Source of the DNA: an uncultured Algimonas sp. | Lineage (GTDB): Bacteria > Pseudomonadota > Alphaproteobacteria > Caulobacterales > Maricaulaceae | Direction: 5' to 3' | Length of the DNA stretch: 64,000 nucleotides | Assembly: GCF_947498175.1 (NCBI RefSeq) | Contig: NZ_CANMJB010000003.1 | Location: 1 to 64,000 of the forward strand | Shown here: piece after piece, positions 36,067 to 45,828 of the stretch | Numbering within the stretch: position 1 is the stretch's first letter | How the letters are laid out: the number at the start of each line of letters is the position of its first letter | Notes under the pieces: generated by a model | Told to the model about the DNA's origin: nothing | The model's database searches: none | Seen by the model: the letters and a program-made list of their open reading frames with translations, nothing else | Made by a program: the position numbers and the translations under genes

Positions 36067-37430
36067 AATCCACCAATCCAATCACAGGCGCGATCGTCTG
36101 GGAAGGCACGGCGGCTTCGGCGGCGGACGTGAATGCCGCCGTCTCGACGGCGCGCAAGGCGTTCCATGGCTTCTCCCTGACGCCCCTATCCGAACGCGTG
36201 GCGATGATGAAACGCTGGGCCGAGGCCGTTACGGTGCGCAAGGAGGAGATCGCCCGGGCCATATCGGACGAGATTGGCAAGCCGATGTGGGAAGCGCGTA
36301 CGGAAGCCGGCGCAATGGCGGGCAAGGTCGCGCACAGCATTCGCGCTCAGGCGGAACGGGCAGGGTCGGCCGAGTCCGAGGCAATGAGCCTGCATCACCG
36401 TCCGCACGGCGTCATGGCCGTGTTCGGGCCGTTCAACTTTCCGGGCCATCTGCCCAACGGTCATATCGTCCCGGCGCTGCTGGCCGGGAACACGGTCGTG
36501 TTCAAGCCGAGCGAGCTCGCGCCGAGCTTGGGCCGGCTTTTCGTCGAACTCGGACAGGCCGCCGGTTTGCCCGACGGCGTGTTGAATGTCGTGCAGGGCG
36601 GGCGCGAGACGGGTGCGGCCTTGCTCGACGCCGACATCGATGGACTGCTTTTCACGGGCAGTGCGGCGACGGGAACATTCTTCCACAAGCATTTCGCCGG
36701 GCGGCCCAATGTCATTCTCGCGCTGGAAATGGGCGGCAACAATCCGCTGATCGTCCATGACGCAGCCGATGTGGACGCGGCCGCCGACATAGCGACGGTC
36801 TCCGCCTTCATTTCCGCCGGACAGCGCTGTTCCTGCGCGCGGCGTCTGATCCTGCCGACCGGCGCGTTCGGCGATGCCGTGCTGGACCGGATCGTCGCAA
36901 GGATCGACGAAATGAAGATAGGAACGCCGGACGAGGACGTCTTCATCGGGTCCGTCGTATCCAAGGATGCGGCGAAAGCCGCCATGGAGTTCGAAGCGAA
37001 ACTGCGCGAGCGAGGCGGGCGCAGTTTGGTCGCCTTGGAACGCGACGGCGCTTTCCTGCGGCCGGGCCTGATGGACGTGACCTATGCTGACGCCCCGGAC
37101 GAGGAGATCTTCGCCCCTTTCCTGCAGGTCCACCGCATCGACGGCATCGACGATCAGATCGCCAAGGCCAACGCCACGCGCTTCGGTCTGGCCGCCGGAT
37201 TGGTCAGCGACGATGCAGAGCTGTGGAAGCGTGTCCGGCCGCGACTGCGCGCCGGGATCGCCAATTGGAACAAGCCGACGACGGGGGCCGCAAGTTCCAT
37301 GCCGTTCGGCGGGCCTGGCCTGTCGGGCAATTTCCGCCCCGGTGCCTATTACGCAGCCGACTATTGCGCTTGGCCGCAAGCGAGCCAGATCGCGACCGAT
37401 CCCATCAGCCCCTCCCTGCCGAACTTCTAG
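36063..37430 (+). CDS. astD: Succinylglutamate-semialdehyde dehydrogenase
   Basis: A 455-aa NAD(P)-dependent aldehyde dehydrogenase that makes succinylglutamate. VFGPFNFPGHLPNGHIVPAL is the characteristic AstD block. FTGSAATG binds the nucleotide, LEMGGNNP holds the general-base Glu and SAGQRCSCARR the catalytic Cys. GTG 36063 overlaps the previous stop (GTGA). It is the last gene of the ast operon here. No astC transaminase is present in the window. Confidence 0.93.
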   Translation: MKSTNPITGAIVWEGTAASAADVNAAVSTARKAFHGFSLTPLSERVAMMKRWAEAVTVRKEEIARAISDEIGKPMWEARTEAGAMAGKVAHSIRAQAERAGSAESEAMSLHHRPHGVMAVFGPFNFPGHLPNGHIVPALLAGNTVVFKPSELAPSLGRLFVELGQAAGLPDGVLNVVQGGRETGAALLDADIDGLLFTGSAATGTFFHKHFAGRPNVILALEMGGNNPLIVHDAADVDAAADIATVSAFISAGQRCSCARRLILPTGAFGDAVLDRIVARIDEMKIGTPDEDVFIGSVVSKDAAKAAMEFEAKLRERGGRSLVALERDGAFLRPGLMDVTYADAPDEEIFAPFLQVHRIDGIDDQIAKANATRFGLAAGLVSDDAELWKRVRPRLRAGIANWNKPTTGAASSMPFGGPGLSGNFRPGAYYAADYCAWPQASQIATDPISPSLPNF

Positions 37431-38383
37431 GCCGTTTCCGCAGCGTCCCGCGTCTGAAGCGGGAAATCGAGATACCAGCTGAAACCGCTGGAGCCGTTAT
37501 CGATCGTCACCGTGCCCTGCATCTTCTGCTCCGGCACGGTCTTGAGCAGCACATGCGACAGCCCCTGCGGCATGTCCGCCTCCGGGCGGGGCGCGGACTC
37601 CGTCCAATGCAGCGTCAACCGGTCGGCGCCGATGCGTTGAGCCACCAGTTCGGCCTTGTGACCGGGCAAGGCCAGTTCGCCCAAGGCCAGCATCAGGGTC
37701 TCTGCATGCTCTGCCGGTATTCCGACGGGATCGAATTCGTAGCGTGTCAACTGACTCCGGTCGTCGATCGTCGCCTCGACCAGATCCTGTATGGGCACAT
37801 CGAAGAACAGATAGCGGTAAGACAGCGAATGGCTGTCTCGGACGCGCGACAGGCGCCGCGACAGATGCGCGGCCTCATCCGGATCCGCCCGTGTGGCCAA
37901 TGTCCGCATGATGGTGAAGCTGTTGCGCAGGCGGTGCGCCATGTCGTGGGCGATGTGATCGGCCGTGTCGGTTTCGCGTCGCCGCTCGGTCACGTCCACG
38001 GCCGTGACCAGGATGGCGTCGGGTTGTCCGTAAGGGGCAAACAGAGGTGTCAGTGTAAGGGCCATCACGCCCATGTCGCTATTCGGTTTGCGATAGAGCC
38101 GTTCTTCGGATGCGGGATGGCCGTTCTTCGCGCGGCCCAGCATGATCAGGATGGCGGCGCGCGACCCTTCCGAATAATCCCACCACGGACCGTGCTCGAA
38201 AGGCCGTCCGATCCAGTCGGTGCGGTCTTCCAGCGGTCCGCCCAGAGGCCCGAAATTGCATTCCAAAACCTGGCCGTCCTCGGACAGAAGACCGGCGAAG
38301 ATCGGCAAGCTTGCCAGCAGGAGGCGCGTCTTGCGGACCGGTGAATGAAACGCGCTGGGGCGGACGACGGTCGGGCCGCTCAT
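37427..38383 (-). CDS. PAS/HWE-type sensor protein with His box but degraded ATP-binding domain
   Basis: A 318-aa soluble protein. A PAS-like region (about 20-130) ends TAVDVTERR. The HWE/HisKA_2-like dimerisation helix MAHRLRNSFTIMRTLATR keeps the phospho-acceptor His in HRxxN. The ATPase domain has lost its key motifs: the N-box position reads GELALPGHKAEL with no Asn, and WTESAPRPEA replaces the HWE consensus W-x-E-x-GGPxV. It cannot be expected to phosphorylate itself. It overlaps the upstream kinase gene by 4 bp, and that protein has the opposite defects. Confidence 0.8.
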   Translation of the reverse strand: MSGPTVVRPSAFHSPVRKTRLLLASLPIFAGLLSEDGQVLECNFGPLGGPLEDRTDWIGRPFEHGPWWDYSEGSRAAILIMLGRAKNGHPASEERLYRKPNSDMGVMALTLTPLFAPYGQPDAILVTAVDVTERRRETDTADHIAHDMAHRLRNSFTIMRTLATRADPDEAAHLSRRLSRVRDSHSLSYRYLFFDVPIQDLVEATIDDRSQLTRYEFDPVGIPAEHAETLMLALGELALPGHKAELVAQRIGADRLTLHWTESAPRPEADMPQGLSHVLLKTVPEQKMQGTVTIDNGSSGFSWYLDFPLQTRDAAETA

Positions 38384-39417
38384 GCGTCGATGCCGTCAAA
38401 GTCGAAATCGTCCCCGTCCGGCACGGGCAGTTCGAAGGTCCAGCTCAACCCGTCTTCGAGATTGAGGAGATGGGATTTCCCGCCCGTGATCTGCGGGAAC
38501 AGACGTTCGCCCAGAACGAGACCGAAACCGCGGCCCAGCGCGGCCGAGACGCGGGGGCCGCCATCCTCGATCCAGTGCAGCCGGAGAACCCGGCCCTGCG
38601 CGCTATCCAGGACGTCCGACTGGATGGACACGGATCCGCAATACGGCCCATCCGTGTCGCGCAAAGCCCCGTGACGACGGGCATTGTCGACCAATTCGGA
38701 TAAAAGCAGCGTCATCAGCGGTACGGATGCAACGGGGACATTCCCGCCGTCCAGAAGCGTCTTCAGACGCGTCTTGCGCATGGCTGCGGGCACGGTCTCG
38801 AACGCCGTCGCGAGCAACGCATTCAGACCAAGACTCTGGATGTCGGGATCGCTGACGCTGTCGATGACCGATGCAAGTGCGTCCAACCGGTCCGAGAGCT
38901 TGTCCCGGTCCTGTTGCGGCCGGTCCGCCGATCGGAAATTCTCGATCACGGTCTGGGCGAGGCTGAGCATGGATTCGATGCGGGCATTGGCTTCGGTGAG
39001 ACGCGACTTGGCGAACGGATCCTGCGGCGTCAGTCCGTTATCGTCGCAATCGATGAAGGTCACGGCCAGTTCGTCGACATGGCCTTTGCCGTCCCTGACC
39101 GGCGTCAGCGTCAGCAGGCCCCGGCCGTATATGTCGCTCGGCCCGGTTCGTTCCTTCAGGTAGGCCCGCTCGACCTGGACCCGTTCGCCCTTCGATGCCA
39201 GCTCGCAAAGATCGACGATTTGGGAAATGGAATCGTGGGAATAGGCGAAGCTCGGAACGGCCCAGAGAAACGATTCCGAAGTTTCCGGACGCGATTGGAT
39301 GATATGCCCGTCGGGCGAGGTGAAGCCCGAAAAGACAGGCAGGGCGTCGATCAGACGCGAAAGCCTGCGGCGTTCGAGCTGTTCCTGTTCTGCGCGACTG
39401 TCCCTCTCATCGGGCAC
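38380..39417 (-). CDS. PAS/HWE-type kinase with intact ATP-binding domain but no phospho-acceptor His
   Basis: A 345-aa soluble protein with a GTG start. It has a PAS-like N-terminal half, then a helical region where the HWE His box should be. There ARIESMLSLAQTVIENF has Ala in the His position. The catalytic domain is well kept: SELVDNARRHGAL is the N-box with Asn, and HWIEDGGPRVSAALGRGFGLVL contains the HWE GGP and GFG elements. It could use ATP but has no own acceptor. It is encoded immediately before and overlapping the His-bearing partner. Confidence 0.8.
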   Translation of the reverse strand: MPDERDSRAEQEQLERRRLSRLIDALPVFSGFTSPDGHIIQSRPETSESFLWAVPSFAYSHDSISQIVDLCELASKGERVQVERAYLKERTGPSDIYGRGLLTLTPVRDGKGHVDELAVTFIDCDDNGLTPQDPFAKSRLTEANARIESMLSLAQTVIENFRSADRPQQDRDKLSDRLDALASVIDSVSDPDIQSLGLNALLATAFETVPAAMRKTRLKTLLDGGNVPVASVPLMTLLLSELVDNARRHGALRDTDGPYCGSVSIQSDVLDSAQGRVLRLHWIEDGGPRVSAALGRGFGLVLGERLFPQITGGKSHLLNLEDGLSWTFELPVPDGDDFDFDGIDA

Positions 39418-39580: not shown

Positions 39581-40324
39581 CTAAGCGGCTTGCGATCTCT
39601 TCGAAAGCGGGACGGTCAGCTGTTCGACTAGGTCTTCGCGCTTGTCCATGTCGAAGCGGCACGCGAAGTTCTGCTCGTCCAGGAAGGTCACGGATTGACG
39701 TCCCGTCTGGATCAGGTTTTCGGACTCCAAGGCCCGGAAGGCCCGGTTCACGGAGACGTTGGTCAGACCCAGAGTGCGGCCGATCTCTTCTTGGGTCAGC
39801 GGCAGAGGCAGGGTCCGCAGGGTGTTCGGATAGGTGCGCCTGCACCGGTGGAGCATGATGAAAAGGAAATAGGCGAGACGGTCCGGCGCCTTCATTTGAC
39901 CGACAACGGCACTCATCATGCGCAAATTCATCATGTCCCGGACCAGCTCGTCATGGACGAACGCCTGCAGGACCGGATCCTGGCGCATGCAGTCACGGAA
40001 CGCCTCTGCGGAAACGCTGATCAGCTCGCAAGGCGTGATGGTACCCACGTCTTCCATCCGGTTGGCACGTTCGAGCCAGGTCAGACCCAGCGCGTCACCG
40101 CGAATCCTCAGCGTGCTGATCGGCTTGATGCCGTACGACAGAACGGTCGACTCGTGGATCCACCCTTTGGCGACGAAATAGAGGCGTTGCATGGGCTCGC
40201 CGGCCCGGAAGATGGGTTCGCGCGCGCCCAGGTCGTGCAGGCGCAACGATACGGAGTCGATCCATGGGCGATGCCGGAGATTGGTCGGCAGAAGCGCTTG
40301 TAATTGCAGTTTCGCGTCGTCCAT
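39581..40324 (-). CDS. Crp/Fnr-family regulator 1
   Basis: About 247 aa: an N-terminal cyclic-nucleotide-type beta-barrel (EPIFRAGEPMQRLYFVAKGW) and a C-terminal winged helix (LPLTQEEIGRTLGLTNVSVNRAFRAL, recognition helix at the end). There is no FNR-type cysteine cluster. ATG 40324 was preferred to GTG 40393. It lies in a same-strand series: receiver gene, this regulator, then the two complementary kinases, with 163-bp gaps. It is one of five paralogues within 7 kb. Confidence 0.85.
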   Translation of the reverse strand: MDDAKLQLQALLPTNLRHRPWIDSVSLRLHDLGAREPIFRAGEPMQRLYFVAKGWIHESTVLSYGIKPISTLRIRGDALGLTWLERANRMEDVGTITPCELISVSAEAFRDCMRQDPVLQAFVHDELVRDMMNLRMMSAVVGQMKAPDRLAYFLFIMLHRCRRTYPNTLRTLPLPLTQEEIGRTLGLTNVSVNRAFRALESENLIQTGRQSVTFLDEQNFACRFDMDKREDLVEQLTVPLSKRSQAA

Positions 40325-40487
40325 GAGGGTCCCGGTCGTTTCCGATCGACCGGCTGACCATGTCGAACGTGTTCGATAATCGATTTCGGACACGAGATAT
40401 TATCGCAAGTTAATTTTACAAGTTGTTTTTGGTTTAAATTTCGAAACCTTGGTCGGCTGCGCTATCCACCGAGGCGGATAGTCCGGC

Positions 40488-40895
40488 TCATGCCGCGTCG
40501 TCTTGGGCGATGGCCCGGCTCAGCGCCTTGTCGCGATAGGGTTTTCGGATCAAGGCAAGAGGCTGGATGTCGCCCCACACGTCCGGGTCGACACGGTCGA
40601 GCGTGGCGGATACGAAAACGCAACCGATACCGAAACGTTTCCGGATCTCCCGCGCCGCGTCGATTCCGGTCTGCTTGCCGAGCAGTCCGATATCCATGAC
40701 GACCACGTCGGGCTTCAATTCGCCGGTGAGCGCGACCGCCTCGGCCGCGACGCCGCATTGGCCGATGACGACATGATTGCCGGACTCGATTTCCGACACG
40801 AGATCATAAGCGATCAACGGCTCGTCTTCGACCACGAGAACGCGTTTGCCGACCGGGCTTTTGCTCTCAATGTCTTCAAGGGGCAGTGTCATCAT
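40488..40895 (-). CDS. Stand-alone response-regulator receiver protein
   Basis: A 135-aa single receiver domain with no output domain. The acidic pair is in VLVVEDEPLIAYDL, the phospho-acceptor Asp in VVVMDIGLLG, the Ser switch in CVFVSATLD and the Lys in LIRKPY, so all catalytic residues are intact. The FVSA/IRKPY pattern is like receivers that work with HWE kinases. It lies upstream of a Crp-type regulator and the kinase pair on the same strand, which makes it the natural phosphoryl acceptor. Confidence 0.88.
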   Translation of the reverse strand: MMTLPLEDIESKSPVGKRVLVVEDEPLIAYDLVSEIESGNHVVIGQCGVAAEAVALTGELKPDVVVMDIGLLGKQTGIDAAREIRKRFGIGCVFVSATLDRVDPDVWGDIQPLALIRKPYRDKALSRAIAQDDAA

Positions 40896-41571: not shown

Positions 41572-42402
41572 CTATGGAAGCCAGTCCGTCTGCATCGTCG
41601 CATAGCGGTTTCTGAAATCGCAGAGTCGCGTCAGCGCCGATATGTCGATCAAGTTCACGGTTTTATTCTCCACGCGTAGAAGCCCGGCCTCTTCCATCGC
41701 CGTGACGGCGCGCGACACGCTGACATTGGTCAGTCCGACCATGTCGCCTATTTCCTGCTGATTGAGCGGCATATGGTAACTGCCTTCGGTCGACGCGGCG
41801 CCAAGCCTGACCCGGGCGTTCAATTCCAGAAACAGGTAGCCGACGCGCGCCCGAGCGCTCATCCGGGAGAATATCCGCAACCGGTCGATCAGGACCGTTT
41901 GCTCGCGCAGGGCTATGGTCAACAACAAGGCGGCCAGACGCGGGCAATTCTTGAAGATCGACCCCAGACCGTTCTTCGGAAACGGGCAGAGAGAGCCCTT
42001 TTCGACCGCGTAGAGATTGGTCGTGCGTTCGGGCAAGGCGACGTCCGGAAAGCCGATGACGTCGCCCGGAAGATAGATGTTGACGATCTGGCGGCGCCCG
42101 TCGGGCGTGTCGATATAGTTGAACAGCCAGCCTTGCTGGACGATGTAGAGGTCCTGGTTCTCATCCATCGTCGAAAACACGGTTTCGTCTTTTCCGAAGG
42201 AGCGGTCCGACGATTGGAGTTCGCGAAGCGCATCGGTCTCGAGAGCGTCGAGATCGACATAATGGGAGAGCTTTTCCACCAGGCAGTTTTGAGAGTTGCC
42301 GGGATCCGCCCCCTCCAGAGCTGGCCGGGCCGCGACGTCGACGTGGCGATCGTCCGACCGGTCCGGGTCTCCATGCTTCATATAGGGTGTGCGTCCGCTC
42401 AT
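41572..42402 (-). CDS. Crp/Fnr-family regulator 2
   Basis: About 276 aa. The sensory barrel has GWLFNYIDTPDGRRQIVNIY and LPGDVIGF. The winged helix is MPLNQQEIGDMVGLTNVSVS followed by RAVTAMEEAGLL. There is no N-terminal Cys cluster. Two Cys near CPFPKNG and FKNCPRL are the only notable ones. ATG 42402 is chosen because GGCGGG lies upstream. It shares the G-R-Q-V/I core of its barrel with regulators 4 and 5, so these three look most closely related. Confidence 0.85.
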   Translation of the reverse strand: MSGRTPYMKHGDPDRSDDRHVDVAARPALEGADPGNSQNCLVEKLSHYVDLDALETDALRELQSSDRSFGKDETVFSTMDENQDLYIVQQGWLFNYIDTPDGRRQIVNIYLPGDVIGFPDVALPERTTNLYAVEKGSLCPFPKNGLGSIFKNCPRLAALLLTIALREQTVLIDRLRIFSRMSARARVGYLFLELNARVRLGAASTEGSYHMPLNQQEIGDMVGLTNVSVSRAVTAMEEAGLLRVENKTVNLIDISALTRLCDFRNRYATMQTDWLP

Positions 42403-42538
42403 ATGCCCGCCGGGTTTGCCGCCTTCCGACCCCCAAAGCAATCGGCCTCGAACGCCCCAATTCCCTCGATCGCATGAAAATCCGAATATCTTGACTGAAG
42501 GCAAGGCGACGCGCTCCTCTTCGCAGAGGCGAGAAAGT

Positions 42539-42566
42539 GGAACCGCACACCCGGGGTAGCCGTTGA
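42539..42566 (+). promoter_or_regulatory. EcfG-type general stress promoter GGAAC-N17-CGTTGA
   Basis: The -35 is GGAAC at 42539-42543, the spacer is exactly 17 bp and the -10 is CGTTGA at 42561-42566. It matches the alphaproteobacterial general-stress sigma consensus fully. The start of transcription should be near 42573, which excludes earlier starts for the small gene at 42596. Confidence 0.7.
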
Positions 42567-42595
42567 TGAGGTCCGAAAAGATGCAGGAGACGATC

Positions 42596-42775
42596 ATGAG
42601 CGACCCGAAACAGACTACGAAGAAGAAACAGGACGCCGAGTTCGAAAAGATGCGCGACCGGGCCAACGAAGCCGACCTGACAAGCTCCCCAGCCTTGAAC
42701 GACGATGCAGGGACCGATAGCGGCGGCGCTGGCGATCAGACCCTGCCCAAAGGCAACCGTTTCGAAGAAGAATAG
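42596..42775 (+). CDS. Small hydrophilic protein (59 aa), probable general-stress gene
   Basis: It starts MSDPKQTTKKKQDAEFEKM. ATG 42596 has AGGAG seven bases upstream. The protein is highly charged, rich in Lys/Glu/Asp and then Gly/Asp/Ser, with no hydrophobic core, so it is probably disordered. The EcfG-type promoter directly upstream makes it a likely member of the general stress regulon. No family is recognised. Confidence 0.65.
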   Translation: MSDPKQTTKKKQDAEFEKMRDRANEADLTSSPALNDDAGTDSGGAGDQTLPKGNRFEEE

Positions 42776-43018: not shown

Positions 43019-43798
43019 ATGCGCCGTATGACCCCGACCGACCAGACCTCTGCTTCCGACCCAGTTCTGGCGCGATTGCCCAAAACTTTCGTCGAAGGCC
43101 TGCGGCTGACAAAGCATATGCGGTCCGATATCGCTCGCGGGCGATCGATCATCGCTGACGGCCAGCCCGTCACGGCCGTCTTCCTGATCTCCGAAGGGTG
43201 GGCCGTATCCAAGATGTCCATCGATACGGGCGATACGCAAATCCTCGACATATTGGGCCCGGGCAGCTTTGCCGGCATCACGCGCCTGGAGGAAATGGGG
43301 TCCCACGATTATTCGGCGATCGCTTTGCAGAACGTTTCGGCCTACCGGATCGACATCGACGCCTTGCACGACATCAGCGCCAAGGACGAGACCGTTTCCC
43401 GTTGGCTGTCGGACACGTTGTCGCGCCAATCGCAGAGGACGCAGCGCCACCTGACCGCGCTCGGCCAGCTTCCTGCCCGCGGCCGTCTTGCCTTCGCCAT
43501 GCTGCGCATACTGGAAGTGGCGCAACAGACAGGCGATTCCGGTCTTCACAAAACGATCCGGCTGCCGATGACGCAGGAAGAGATCGGCAATATGCTGGGC
43601 TTGACGAACGTATCGATCTCCAAACTGATGAGCGCTTTCCGCAAGGAAGGGCTGATCGATTACGGCCGCAACCGCATCGTCGTGCAGGACGCGAACGCCC
43701 TGTCCGAAATCTGCGGTATGGATCCGGAGGAGATTTCGGATGCGGCGCAGGACAAAGCCAGCGACGATATCTCCCCTATGAGCTCACGGTCGGCGTAA
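43019..43798 (+). CDS. Crp/Fnr-family regulator 3
   Basis: A 259-aa protein with a sensory barrel (GWAVSKMSIDTGDTQILDIL, then GPGSFAGI), a helix linker and the winged helix LPMTQEEIGNMLGLTNVSIS followed by KLMSAFRKEGLI. Its tail is acidic. It is the only one of the five on the plus strand, and its last 23 bp overlap the convergent LOV-protein gene. ATG 43028 (MTPTDQ) is a slightly shorter alternative start. Confidence 0.85.
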   Translation: MRRMTPTDQTSASDPVLARLPKTFVEGLRLTKHMRSDIARGRSIIADGQPVTAVFLISEGWAVSKMSIDTGDTQILDILGPGSFAGITRLEEMGSHDYSAIALQNVSAYRIDIDALHDISAKDETVSRWLSDTLSRQSQRTQRHLTALGQLPARGRLAFAMLRILEVAQQTGDSGLHKTIRLPMTQEEIGNMLGLTNVSISKLMSAFRKEGLIDYGRNRIVVQDANALSEICGMDPEEISDAAQDKASDDISPMSSRSA

Positions 43799-44822
43799 TC
43801 GGAACGCTGACGTTGATTTCACGCCCGTGATCGACATCGGGCGCGAGAATATTGGCGTTCATGTCGGATAGAAGCTTGCGGATCACCCGCAATGTGAGGT
43901 CGCCCGACGCCAACCATTGCGCCGCGCTGGGGTCGCCGTGGCCGTCATCGAAGACGGACAGCTCGACGCTTTCCCCCTCATTGCGCAACGTGACGTCCAG
44001 ATGACCGGAGTCCATGCCCTCGAACGATGTCGAGAGAGACGCTTCGAGCAGTTCGGCCAAGACGACGCCGAGGCGCACGGCGATATCGAGCGGCACGACA
44101 GCCGGTTCCGTCGAGATATTGATACGCACGCCGGGACGCGGACTTTTGGCCACGAGCTTCGCCGCGATCTGGCTGACATAGGCGCCGACATCGAGCAATT
44201 CTTCGCGCAAGGATGTCTCGTTGAGATTTTCATAGAGAAGATCGAGGATCTCTAGACGGCGCAGCAGGCTGATGAAGTCGACCGGTCCGTCGTCTTCACT
44301 GTTCTCGGCATGGATCCGAGACATTTCCATGACGACCGACAGATGGATCTGGACCTGCTGTCTGATGATGTCGATCGTCTTTTGCCGCAACGCATTGTCC
44401 TCGTCCTGTTCCGACGAGGCGATTTCGCGCTGCACGCCGACGAAATAGGCGACTTCGCCGTCGGCGTCCTTGATCGGCGTGATGACGAGATCGTTGATGA
44501 ACGTCGATCCGTCGGCTCTGTAGTTGAGGATCTTCTGGCGAACGCCGTCATTGCGCGACAGGGCGATCGCGATATTCTTCACGGCCTGCGGATCCGTATC
44601 CGGGCCTTGCAGGAACCGACAATTGCGCCCGACGACGAAACGGTGCGAATAGCCCGTCGTCAGTTCGAAAGCGCGGTTGACATAGACGATAGGCGTGTCC
44701 GGGCGGTTGGGGTCGGCCACGACGAAGGAAATGGATGTCGCCCGGAAAAAGCCGGTCATGTCCACGCCCAGATCCGGGTGATCGGAATCCAGCATCAGAT
44801 CGCGCGGGCCGCTCACGGCCAT
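43776..44822 (-). CDS. LOV photosensor with degenerate HisKA_2/HWE-like kinase domain
   Basis: A 348-aa soluble protein. The LOV domain spans about residues 22-135. GRNCRFLQG holds the flavin-adduct Cys, and NYRADGSTFINDLVITPI plus AYFVGVQREI complete the fold, so blue-light sensing is well supported. The C-terminal region has kinase-like layout but the His-box position reads IRQQVQIHLSVVMEM without His at the HRxxN site. The N-box reads AELLEASLSTSF without Asn. Only the VFDDGHGDP D-box is kept. It is probably a signalling scaffold and not an active kinase. It follows regulator 4 by 6 bp. Confidence 0.83.
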   Translation of the reverse strand: MAVSGPRDLMLDSDHPDLGVDMTGFFRATSISFVVADPNRPDTPIVYVNRAFELTTGYSHRFVVGRNCRFLQGPDTDPQAVKNIAIALSRNDGVRQKILNYRADGSTFINDLVITPIKDADGEVAYFVGVQREIASSEQDEDNALRQKTIDIIRQQVQIHLSVVMEMSRIHAENSEDDGPVDFISLLRRLEILDLLYENLNETSLREELLDVGAYVSQIAAKLVAKSPRPGVRINISTEPAVVPLDIAVRLGVVLAELLEASLSTSFEGMDSGHLDVTLRNEGESVELSVFDDGHGDPSAAQWLASGDLTLRVIRKLLSDMNANILAPDVDHGREINVSVPITPTVSS

Positions 44823-44828
44823 GACGGC

Positions 44829-45596
44829 CTATTCGGCGGACATGGTCTGGCCGTCCAGAGCACGGCTCAGTTCGCGTTCGAAACGTTGGCGGTCGAGATT
44901 GGCGTAACGGTCATTATAGTCTGCGATCTTGCGAAGACGATCCTCGTCGAGAATTTGGATAGAGGAGCGCGACAGGCGCCGCAACAGCTTGTTTTCGATA
45001 AGTTTGTTGAATTGACGCGAAACATGAACGGCGCTCAGTCCGAGGCAGTCGGCGATGAACTTCTGAGACAGGGGCAGGTAGAGTTCGGACGGGAAGTCCG
45101 CTTCCAGCACGCGCCGCCTGGCGATCGCGTCCGACAGGAAGTAGGCGAGGCTTTCATACGCCCCCAAACGCGCCACGGCGGTGATACGGTCGAGCAGCTG
45201 CACGTTCGTCAGCATGTGCAGGCTATAGAAGATCGCCGACAGATGAGGATTGCGCAGCAACATGCGGCGTGCGGGAAGCAAGGGTGCCACGGCGAGGCGT
45301 CCGTTCGAAGCGGCCGCGACCGAGGTCGTCGATACCGCCCATGACATATGGTCCAGGCCGATCACATCGCCGGCATGGTAGACATCGTGGACCTGCCGGG
45401 AGCCGTCCGGAAGGATGACATAGGAGTAGAACCAGCCTTCGAGAACGACGAAGAAGGTCGACTGATCGGTCCCGTTCGCAAAGACGGCTTCGCCATCGTC
45501 ATAGGATTTTTCATAGTGAAAAAGGGCGAGCAACATATTCGCTTCGTCGGCGTTGATATCGGCGAAATTCGAAATTTTCCGGATAAACGGGTGCAT
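44829..45596 (-). CDS. Crp/Fnr-family regulator 4
   Basis: About 255 aa starting MHPFIRKISNFADI. The barrel includes GWFYSYVILPDGSRQVHDVY and HAGDVIGLDHMSW. The winged helix is LPLSQKFIADCLGLSAVHVS followed by RQFNKLIENKLL. The C-terminus is a charged extension. It is co-directional with and just 6 bp before the LOV gene, so the photosensor and this regulator are probably one transcription unit. An AT-rich 230-bp spacer upstream contains CACTTTAAGTT, a word nearly repeated before regulator 5. Confidence 0.85.
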   Translation of the reverse strand: MHPFIRKISNFADINADEANMLLALFHYEKSYDDGEAVFANGTDQSTFFVVLEGWFYSYVILPDGSRQVHDVYHAGDVIGLDHMSWAVSTTSVAAASNGRLAVAPLLPARRMLLRNPHLSAIFYSLHMLTNVQLLDRITAVARLGAYESLAYFLSDAIARRRVLEADFPSELYLPLSQKFIADCLGLSAVHVSRQFNKLIENKLLRRLSRSSIQILDEDRLRKIADYNDRYANLDRQRFERELSRALDGQTMSAE

Positions 45597-45828
45597 GGTG
45601 TCTTTGCTTCTCGTATGTCCTGAGAGCCATCTCCGTCCGACCGCACTCAATCTGCTTGCTGTTCGTGCCCCAATATCGGTTCCATGTCGTTATAGCATGT
45701 TAAGACGCATGATTTGCTTGCAGATATAATTTGTCGCACTTTAAGTTAGCGCAATCATGCAGTCATTTCGCAGTAAAATTGTATAACGCCCCTTCGAAAC
45801 CCGGATTATGACGCCGGATCGTGGACGC

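Follow-up and report, generated by a model that had tools for sequence, protein, structure and literature searches.

Two overlapping HWE-type kinase genes with complementary defects in an uncultured Algimonas: a candidate split histidine kinase

Two overlapping genes on the minus strand of a 64,000-nucleotide stretch of DNA from an uncultured Algimonas sp. (the window, hereafter) encode HWE-type histidine kinase relatives whose defects are complementary, and the pair is considered here as a candidate split kinase. Gene A (37427..38383 with its stop codon, 37430-38383 without it) specifies 318 residues, and gene B (38380..39417 with the stop, 38383-39417 without it), which begins with GTG, specifies 345. 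By the coordinates of the open reading frames (ORFs), the stop of B and the start of A overlap at 38380..38383, 4 bp that read ATGA on the minus strand. Protein A carries the box DMAHRLRN, in which His150 occupies the acceptor position, and its N-box Asn, GGP and GFG are gone; protein B carries NARIESMLSLAQ, VDNARRHGAL and WIEDGGPRV, with Ala145 at the acceptor position. An earlier note on this DNA had described the two reading frames, their lengths, their overlap, their motifs and the complementarity of their defects, all of which holds, with the addition that B also has a GFG not listed before. Judged by these motifs, neither A nor B is on its own a complete HWE histidine kinase, that is, one with acceptor His and N-box Asn in a single chain.

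The product of gene A is a putative phospho-acceptor subunit that comprises a PAS domain (PAS_4 in Pfam, E 2.9e-11), an HWE-type DHp domain with the acceptor His, and a degenerate CA domain. The profile of the A family puts His150 (codon 37934..37936), the predicted phospho-acceptor, opposite the His of the AHRFKN box in Brucella LOV-HK, and in the predicted structure DHp helix 1 comprises residues 141-165 (37889..37963). The degenerate CA domain, at about residues 195-311 (37451..37801), was recognized by comparing its predicted secondary structure with that of B and from the alignments; its N-box helix stops at residue 237, and it has no GGP and no GFG. Trp260 and Glu262, the W-x-E of the G1 region, are both present in 33 of 33 A homologues, and the CA fold of A may be retained for a purpose other than ATP binding, perhaps dimer shape or docking. 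By itself A gives no match to Pfam HWE_HK; 13 of 36 rows of its family match that model at E 0.01 (the best at 0.00031), and the family profile matches the Brucella LOV-HK structure 6ph4 at E 4.1e-11.

The product of gene B, a putative ATP-binding subunit, has a PAS-like domain, an HWE-type DHp domain without the acceptor His, and a CA domain in which the N, G1 and G2 boxes are present. The B profile places Ala145 (codon 38983..38985) opposite the acceptor His of LOV-HK; alignment with this well-studied HWE kinase, a check that the earlier note had proposed, thus agrees with what was claimed for both proteins. The same profile lays the N-box, with Asn245 (codon 38683..38685), over ELATNAVKYGAL of Brucella LOV-HK, and the G1/G2 region EDGGPRV...GFG follows at residues 284-299 (38521..38568). 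B reaches HWE_HK at 24.9 bits (cut-off 22.8), 13 of 33 rows of its family match the model at E 0.01, and its family profile matches LOV-HK 5epv at E 4e-17. Predicted structures contain PAS, DHp and CA-like folds in both A and B, and the models of both match Brucella LOV-HK best. An alternative acceptor in B was considered and excluded, as helix 1 of the window's protein (residues 136-161) is without any His. A separate observation concerns the C-terminus of B (about 38383-38412 in the window): an FDG or FEG motif, possibly a docking peptide, lies within the last 35 residues of 14 of the 30 B homologues, despite the variable stretch before it.

Homologues were collected in protein searches that scored only candidates sharing most words, and the counts include the window's own proteins: 33 for A (E at most 4.6e-96) and 30 for B (E at most 2.6e-95). 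Three locus rows near-identical (at least 98.8%) to rows of the protein search (P rows) were excluded from each count, and distant HWE-type proteins (P0034 from the A search, P0065-P0078 from the B search) were left out of the alignments. The acceptor column of B has His in 0 of 30 rows and is filled by ten different residues (Ala 11, Ser 5, Gln 4, Arg 3, Thr 2, and one each of Asp, Leu, Tyr, Glu and Met). Asn245, Glu241, Trp282, Glu284, Phe298 and Gly299 are invariant in all 30. The acceptor column of A has His in 28 of 33 rows, Tyr in four (P0003, P0004, P0005 and P0018) and Ser in one (P0033), and its N-box column has Asn in a single row (P0016). Among the 27 A rows that pass the filter for the His clade (P0024 and P0028, both with His, fall outside it), His is kept in 26, and eight different residues stand where Asn was lost. 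Each protein therefore varies freely where its partner is fixed, and by these motif counts the acceptor and the ATP site sit on different proteins. The earlier note had singled out a His in the acceptor helix of B as an observation that would count against its reading; none is found, either in helix 1 of the window's B or in the acceptor column of the 30 homologues. Within the His clade, conservation of this complementary kind speaks strongly, at the level of sequence, for a split kinase.

The pattern exceeds what chance would give, since all eight other HWE_HK-matching proteins of the same genome keep both His and Asn (seven by alignment, the eighth by reading its sequence). A broader background of 57 distinct HWE-type sequences, which are loci fetched by similarity together with those of the genome itself and not a random draw, includes 55 with both residues, one without His and one without Asn; 53 of the 55 align with both, and in the other two the intact His falls beyond the aligned region. 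The control alignment, of 16 rows, missed the motif in five; L117, L119 and L124 (the same gene as L083) were then read directly, and L121, a 39% LOV homologue from genome G010, was left out. A LOV protein encoded at 43776-44822 in the window is too far from HWE_HK and stands outside both control counts. The two background sequences with a residue missing are unpaired HWE proteins from the same order, with single lesions of the two kinds: L021/L137 (G059) has the His but Leu at the N-box Asn, and L072/L138 (G067) has the Asn but Gln at the acceptor. A B-profile search of ORFs of at least 110 residues in the 14-kb stretches around L021 and L072, made to look for a complementary neighbour, found no second HWE-type ORF in either.

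The motifs of this genome alone would permit a reading in which both copies are simply degenerating and have come to look complementary by chance, and we give that reading almost no credence. The same lesions recur in about thirty homologues of each protein, the N-box of B is invariant, and dN/dS is below 1. Among eight pairwise comparisons of A and B, NG86 dN/dS ranges from 0.17 to 0.67, and for both CA domains it ranges from 0.25 to 0.50, with dN 0.351 and dS 1.38 for the degenerate CA domain of A between this genome (G000) and G015; the ratios are rough because dS is high. Both genes are under purifying selection, which together with the recurrence of the lesions in about thirty homologues of each argues that the pattern is not local decay. 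Decay or frameshift was rejected on these grounds and on the absence of internal stops from the matches to both genes in the four genomes that have the pair.

Those four genomes, G000, G015, G012 and G007, all carry one genus code, and in all four the orthologous A and B genes are adjacent; the earlier note had suggested looking for the same pair in related genomes, and it is indeed there. The overlap of 4 bp is found in three of them (G000, G015 and G012), and G007 has none with the GTG start chosen there. Family-wide complementary loss together with adjacency is what a split kinase predicts. Our preferred reading, to which we assign a probability of roughly 0.6, is that A and B make up one split HWE kinase, in which B would phosphorylate His150 of A and A would likely feed a receiver encoded upstream. 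B would bind ATP, the DHp domains of A and B would pair in a mixed bundle, phosphorylation of His150 by B would occur in trans, and A would then pass the phosphoryl group to the receiver. Each PAS domain would bring its own signal to an output needing both subunits, and with a PAS domain on each subunit the pair would be a two-input switch. That the heterodimer is obligate and works through a relay is something we infer, as the earlier note did.

The proposed end of the relay is a stand-alone receiver domain with Asp68 (40488..40895, minus strand; PF00072, E 2.2e-11) that resembles the receiver of PhyR. Its best NCBIfam model is the PhyR family, with a score below the cut-off; HWE kinases usually have PhyR as their partner. 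Among 41 receiver homologues (40 of full length, one a fragment; identity at least 59% throughout), Asp68 and Thr98 are present in 41 of 41, and Lys118 in 40 of the 40 aligned there. The gene order on the minus strand is receiver, Crp/Fnr, B, A. The receiver does lie on the strand of the pair, as the earlier note had it, but it does not adjoin B: the gene of a Crp/Fnr-family regulator (39581..40393, minus strand; PF13545, PF00027), on which the earlier note is silent, intervenes immediately upstream of B.

Between the two clades of A, the acceptor His and an adjacent receiver are kept or missing together, with P0018 as an exception. The tree of A splits at a support of 100/100 into 29 rows (28 with His plus P0018 with Tyr) and four rows with Tyr, Tyr, Tyr and Ser; the Ser row, P0033, has a long branch, and its position is unsure according to a warning of the tree tool. 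Three of the four Tyr rows read DMAYRMRNSF around the acceptor. On the side of B, rows P0035, P0036 and P0039 form one clade at 100/100, with the G1 motifs ETAGR, ESGLQ and ESGLQ. P0035 lies on a contig of the same length as that of the Tyr row P0004, and P0036 and P0039 match the B gene of the Tyr genome G012 (98.9% and 76% identity). Nor does loss of GGP single out the Tyr clade, as EDGGP is inexact in 10 of the 27 other B rows. The receiver lies directly upstream of the Crp/Fnr gene in G015, as in G000. No receiver stands beside the pair in G012 or G007, where a divergent ORF that begins MRKTL.NLHLL lies upstream of Crp/Fnr instead. The acceptor His and the adjacent receiver are both present in G000 and G015 and both absent in G012 and G007. 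Receiver-like matches anywhere in the latter two genomes reach 29-40% identity, against 70% for G015; with G012 70% and G007 85% complete, absence of the receiver from elsewhere in those genomes is uncertain. In the protein-search rows, for which contigs of equal length are presumed to be one and the same, a receiver homologue accompanies 14 of the 33 A rows, 13 of them with His and one with Tyr. Eleven A-B pairs lie on shared contigs, nine of them also with a receiver homologue; the two pairs without a receiver row are that of the G015 cluster, where the receiver was seen directly, and the Tyr-clade pair P0004/P0035. In the sister clade the relay has probably been lost, with the pair retained solely for binding.

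Several observations weigh against a split kinase. Five A rows (Tyr 4, Ser 1 of 33) are without an acceptor His. The motif EDGGP is exact in just 17 of the 30 B rows; all 17 are among the 27 outside the Tyr clade, and even the final GP is absent from five of those 27 (P0046, P0050, P0053, P0058 and P0064). P0018, which is inside the His clade, has Tyr at the acceptor, yet a receiver homologue (P0086) lies on the same inferred contig. The joint loss of His and receiver maps to a single deep branch and thus counts as one event, not several. An Asn in the N-box of A, the other observation that the earlier note had held to be damaging, does occur, in P0016; it is absent from 32 of 33, and P0016 is still without GGP and GFG. 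Phosphorylation in cis is reported for the nearest solved relative, Brucella LOV-HK (PMC8092228), but a split pair has to work in trans, and EL346, of the same family, is likewise reported to be active as a monomer (PMC10359499), so dimerisation cannot be assumed. What the earlier note proposed is therefore supported in part, since complementary loss is family-wide, but not as a universal rule, given the Tyr/Ser clade, P0018 and the variable EDGGP.

The same observations could be explained by a pseudokinase pair that signals by binding, in the manner of DivL, with sensing through PAS, the receiver or the Crp/Fnr regulator being held or released, and the His of A kept as part of a receiver-docking surface; we consider this possible, though rather unlikely. 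The occurrence of Tyr or Ser at the acceptor in five of 33 A homologues, DMAYRMRNSF in three of the four Tyr cases, and the inexact EDGGP of B would fit, and DivL itself, a known pseudokinase, is described as having Tyr at the acceptor and working without kinase activity (PMC4211667). A third degenerate protein of the window, the LOV protein at 43776-44822, also fits, being without the N-box Asn in four of four orthologues and without the acceptor His in three of four. Binding alone, however, would not require the Asn, both Glu, the Trp and the FG that B has kept in 30 of 30 homologues, and A has kept the His in 28 of 33 although its N-box is gone.

A stand-alone phosphotransferase of the ChpT kind offers another account of A, since ChpT has a kinase-like fold, consisting of a DHp domain with the His and a CA-like fold without an ATP site, and the architecture of A matches it. 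Another, intact HWE kinase would then feed A, and B would be a separate ATP-binding regulator. The genome has eight HWE_HK-matching proteins with intact His and Asn that could serve, but such a scheme explains neither the gene overlap nor why the ATP motifs of B are invariant, and no match to the HPTransfase family was found among 36 A rows at E 0.01, a search that distant kinship could escape. This account seems to us improbable.

Complementation between defective kinase subunits has precedents. With NtrB and CheA, heterodimers built in the laboratory reportedly regain activity in trans when one subunit has a His mutation and the other an ATP-site mutation, whereas the lesions of A and B are natural and conserved. 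In Rv0600c/Rv0601c of Mycobacterium tuberculosis an ordinary kinase that is not of HWE type is split at domain level, unlike in A/B. DivL of Caulobacter is not of HWE type either. Brucella LOV-HK (5epv, 6ph4) and EL346 (4r3a) resemble both A and B in fold and in DHp/CA sequence, but each of them is a complete kinase whose single chain carries both His and Asn. The Rv0600c/Rv0601c kinases are similar to the present pair in that two kinases cooperate with one regulator, TcrA (PMC9274095). DivL shares its acceptor Tyr with four A homologues, though not with the window's A, which has His, and differs in retaining all its ATP boxes (PMC4211667), which A has lost. The established split kinase is CheA3/CheA4 of Rhodobacter sphaeroides, in which, as in A/B, the acceptor His is on one protein and the ATP site on the other; neither is reported to be active alone, but when both are present CheA4 phosphorylates CheA3, and CheA3 in turn feeds a receiver (PMC3591291). 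There whole domains are gone from a chemotaxis kinase (P1 from CheA4, P3 and P4 from CheA3; PMC3591291), whereas A and B, known here from sequence, keep PAS, DHp and CA folds, are of the HWE sensor type and differ by point or short lesions. Hik36/Hik43 of Synechocystis is likewise reported as a split kinase, with an HPt-bearing part, a CA-bearing part and a response regulator, but it is of CheA type, its genes are far apart and the split is at domain level (PMC7656254). Further split kinases are possible, as 1556 of 42417 HisKA proteins are reported to be without a HATPase domain (PMC3591291). Split kinases are thus already known, chiefly as CheA proteins with whole domains missing, and what is new in A/B, to judge from their motifs and folds, is that both partners have the whole architecture and are of HWE type. 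A literature search, with most subscription journals outside its reach, found no description of this pair or of a natural HWE pair with complementary lesions, and nothing on Algimonas together with histidine kinases.

A history that would join the two clades can be offered tentatively: a sensor kinase was duplicated, the copies lost different catalytic halves but retained their PAS, DHp and CA folds and became an obligate AND-gate HWE pair feeding one receiver, and a sister clade then lost the His and the adjacent receiver, to become a DivL-like, Tyr-bearing pseudokinase pair. If this were true, the family would be a natural counterpart of the classic complementation experiment, with both fates of a split kinase preserved side by side. 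It would outline a route from an ordinary sensor kinase to an obligate heterodimer that integrates two inputs, and the Tyr-bearing sister clade would show how a split pair becomes a pseudokinase. Theory holds that split kinases are able to give switch-like responses (PMC3591291), and the A/B family supplies about thirty natural variants on which this could be tested.

The distribution of the pair is narrow. Full-length matches to A were found in four of 18 genomes of the genus and in none of 119 others of the family, and three additional matches are partial. When 299 genomes of the order were searched with the B profile, 20 matched at E 1e-25, with full length only in G000 and G015; the other 18 matches start at about residue 95-140, and G012 and G007 are not among the matches listed. 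Genome contigs scanned with the B sequence gave no relative, and a scan with the alignment of A returned two metagenome-assembled genomes, one of Algimonas sp. and one of Hellea sp., with contigs equal in length to those of G007 and G012. Among named records, those of Algimonas, Hellea and Litorimonas stand closest to the family; the NCBI taxonomy has Algimonas and Litorimonas in Robiginitomaculaceae.

The order Crp/Fnr-B-A is common to all four genomes, in the same surroundings, with the Crp/Fnr ORFs of the relatives recognized by eye. Convergent with this block in each are genes that we take to be those of the ast arginine pathway. Four Crp/Fnr-type ORFs occur within about 6 kb of the window (39581-40393, 41572-42666, 43019-43798 and 44829-45650), interleaved with degenerate sensor kinases; three were assigned by Pfam, and 43019-43798 by eye. 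The LOV-domain kinase-like protein (43776-44822, minus strand) belongs to the same gene island, just downstream of its own Crp/Fnr gene (44829-45650); Gln occupies its acceptor position, and Ala replaces its N-box Asn. Its orthologues in G000, G015, G012 and G007 have Gln, Gln, Asn and His at the acceptor and Ala, Ser, Ala and Ala at the N-box residue, and by these residues it is probably a dead LOV kinase; a second LOV kinase of the same genome, L083, is intact. In G012, a photolyase-like gene, so judged by eye (L074, 3127-4683), separates the LOV protein gene from the A/B pair, a hint that the island may serve a light response.

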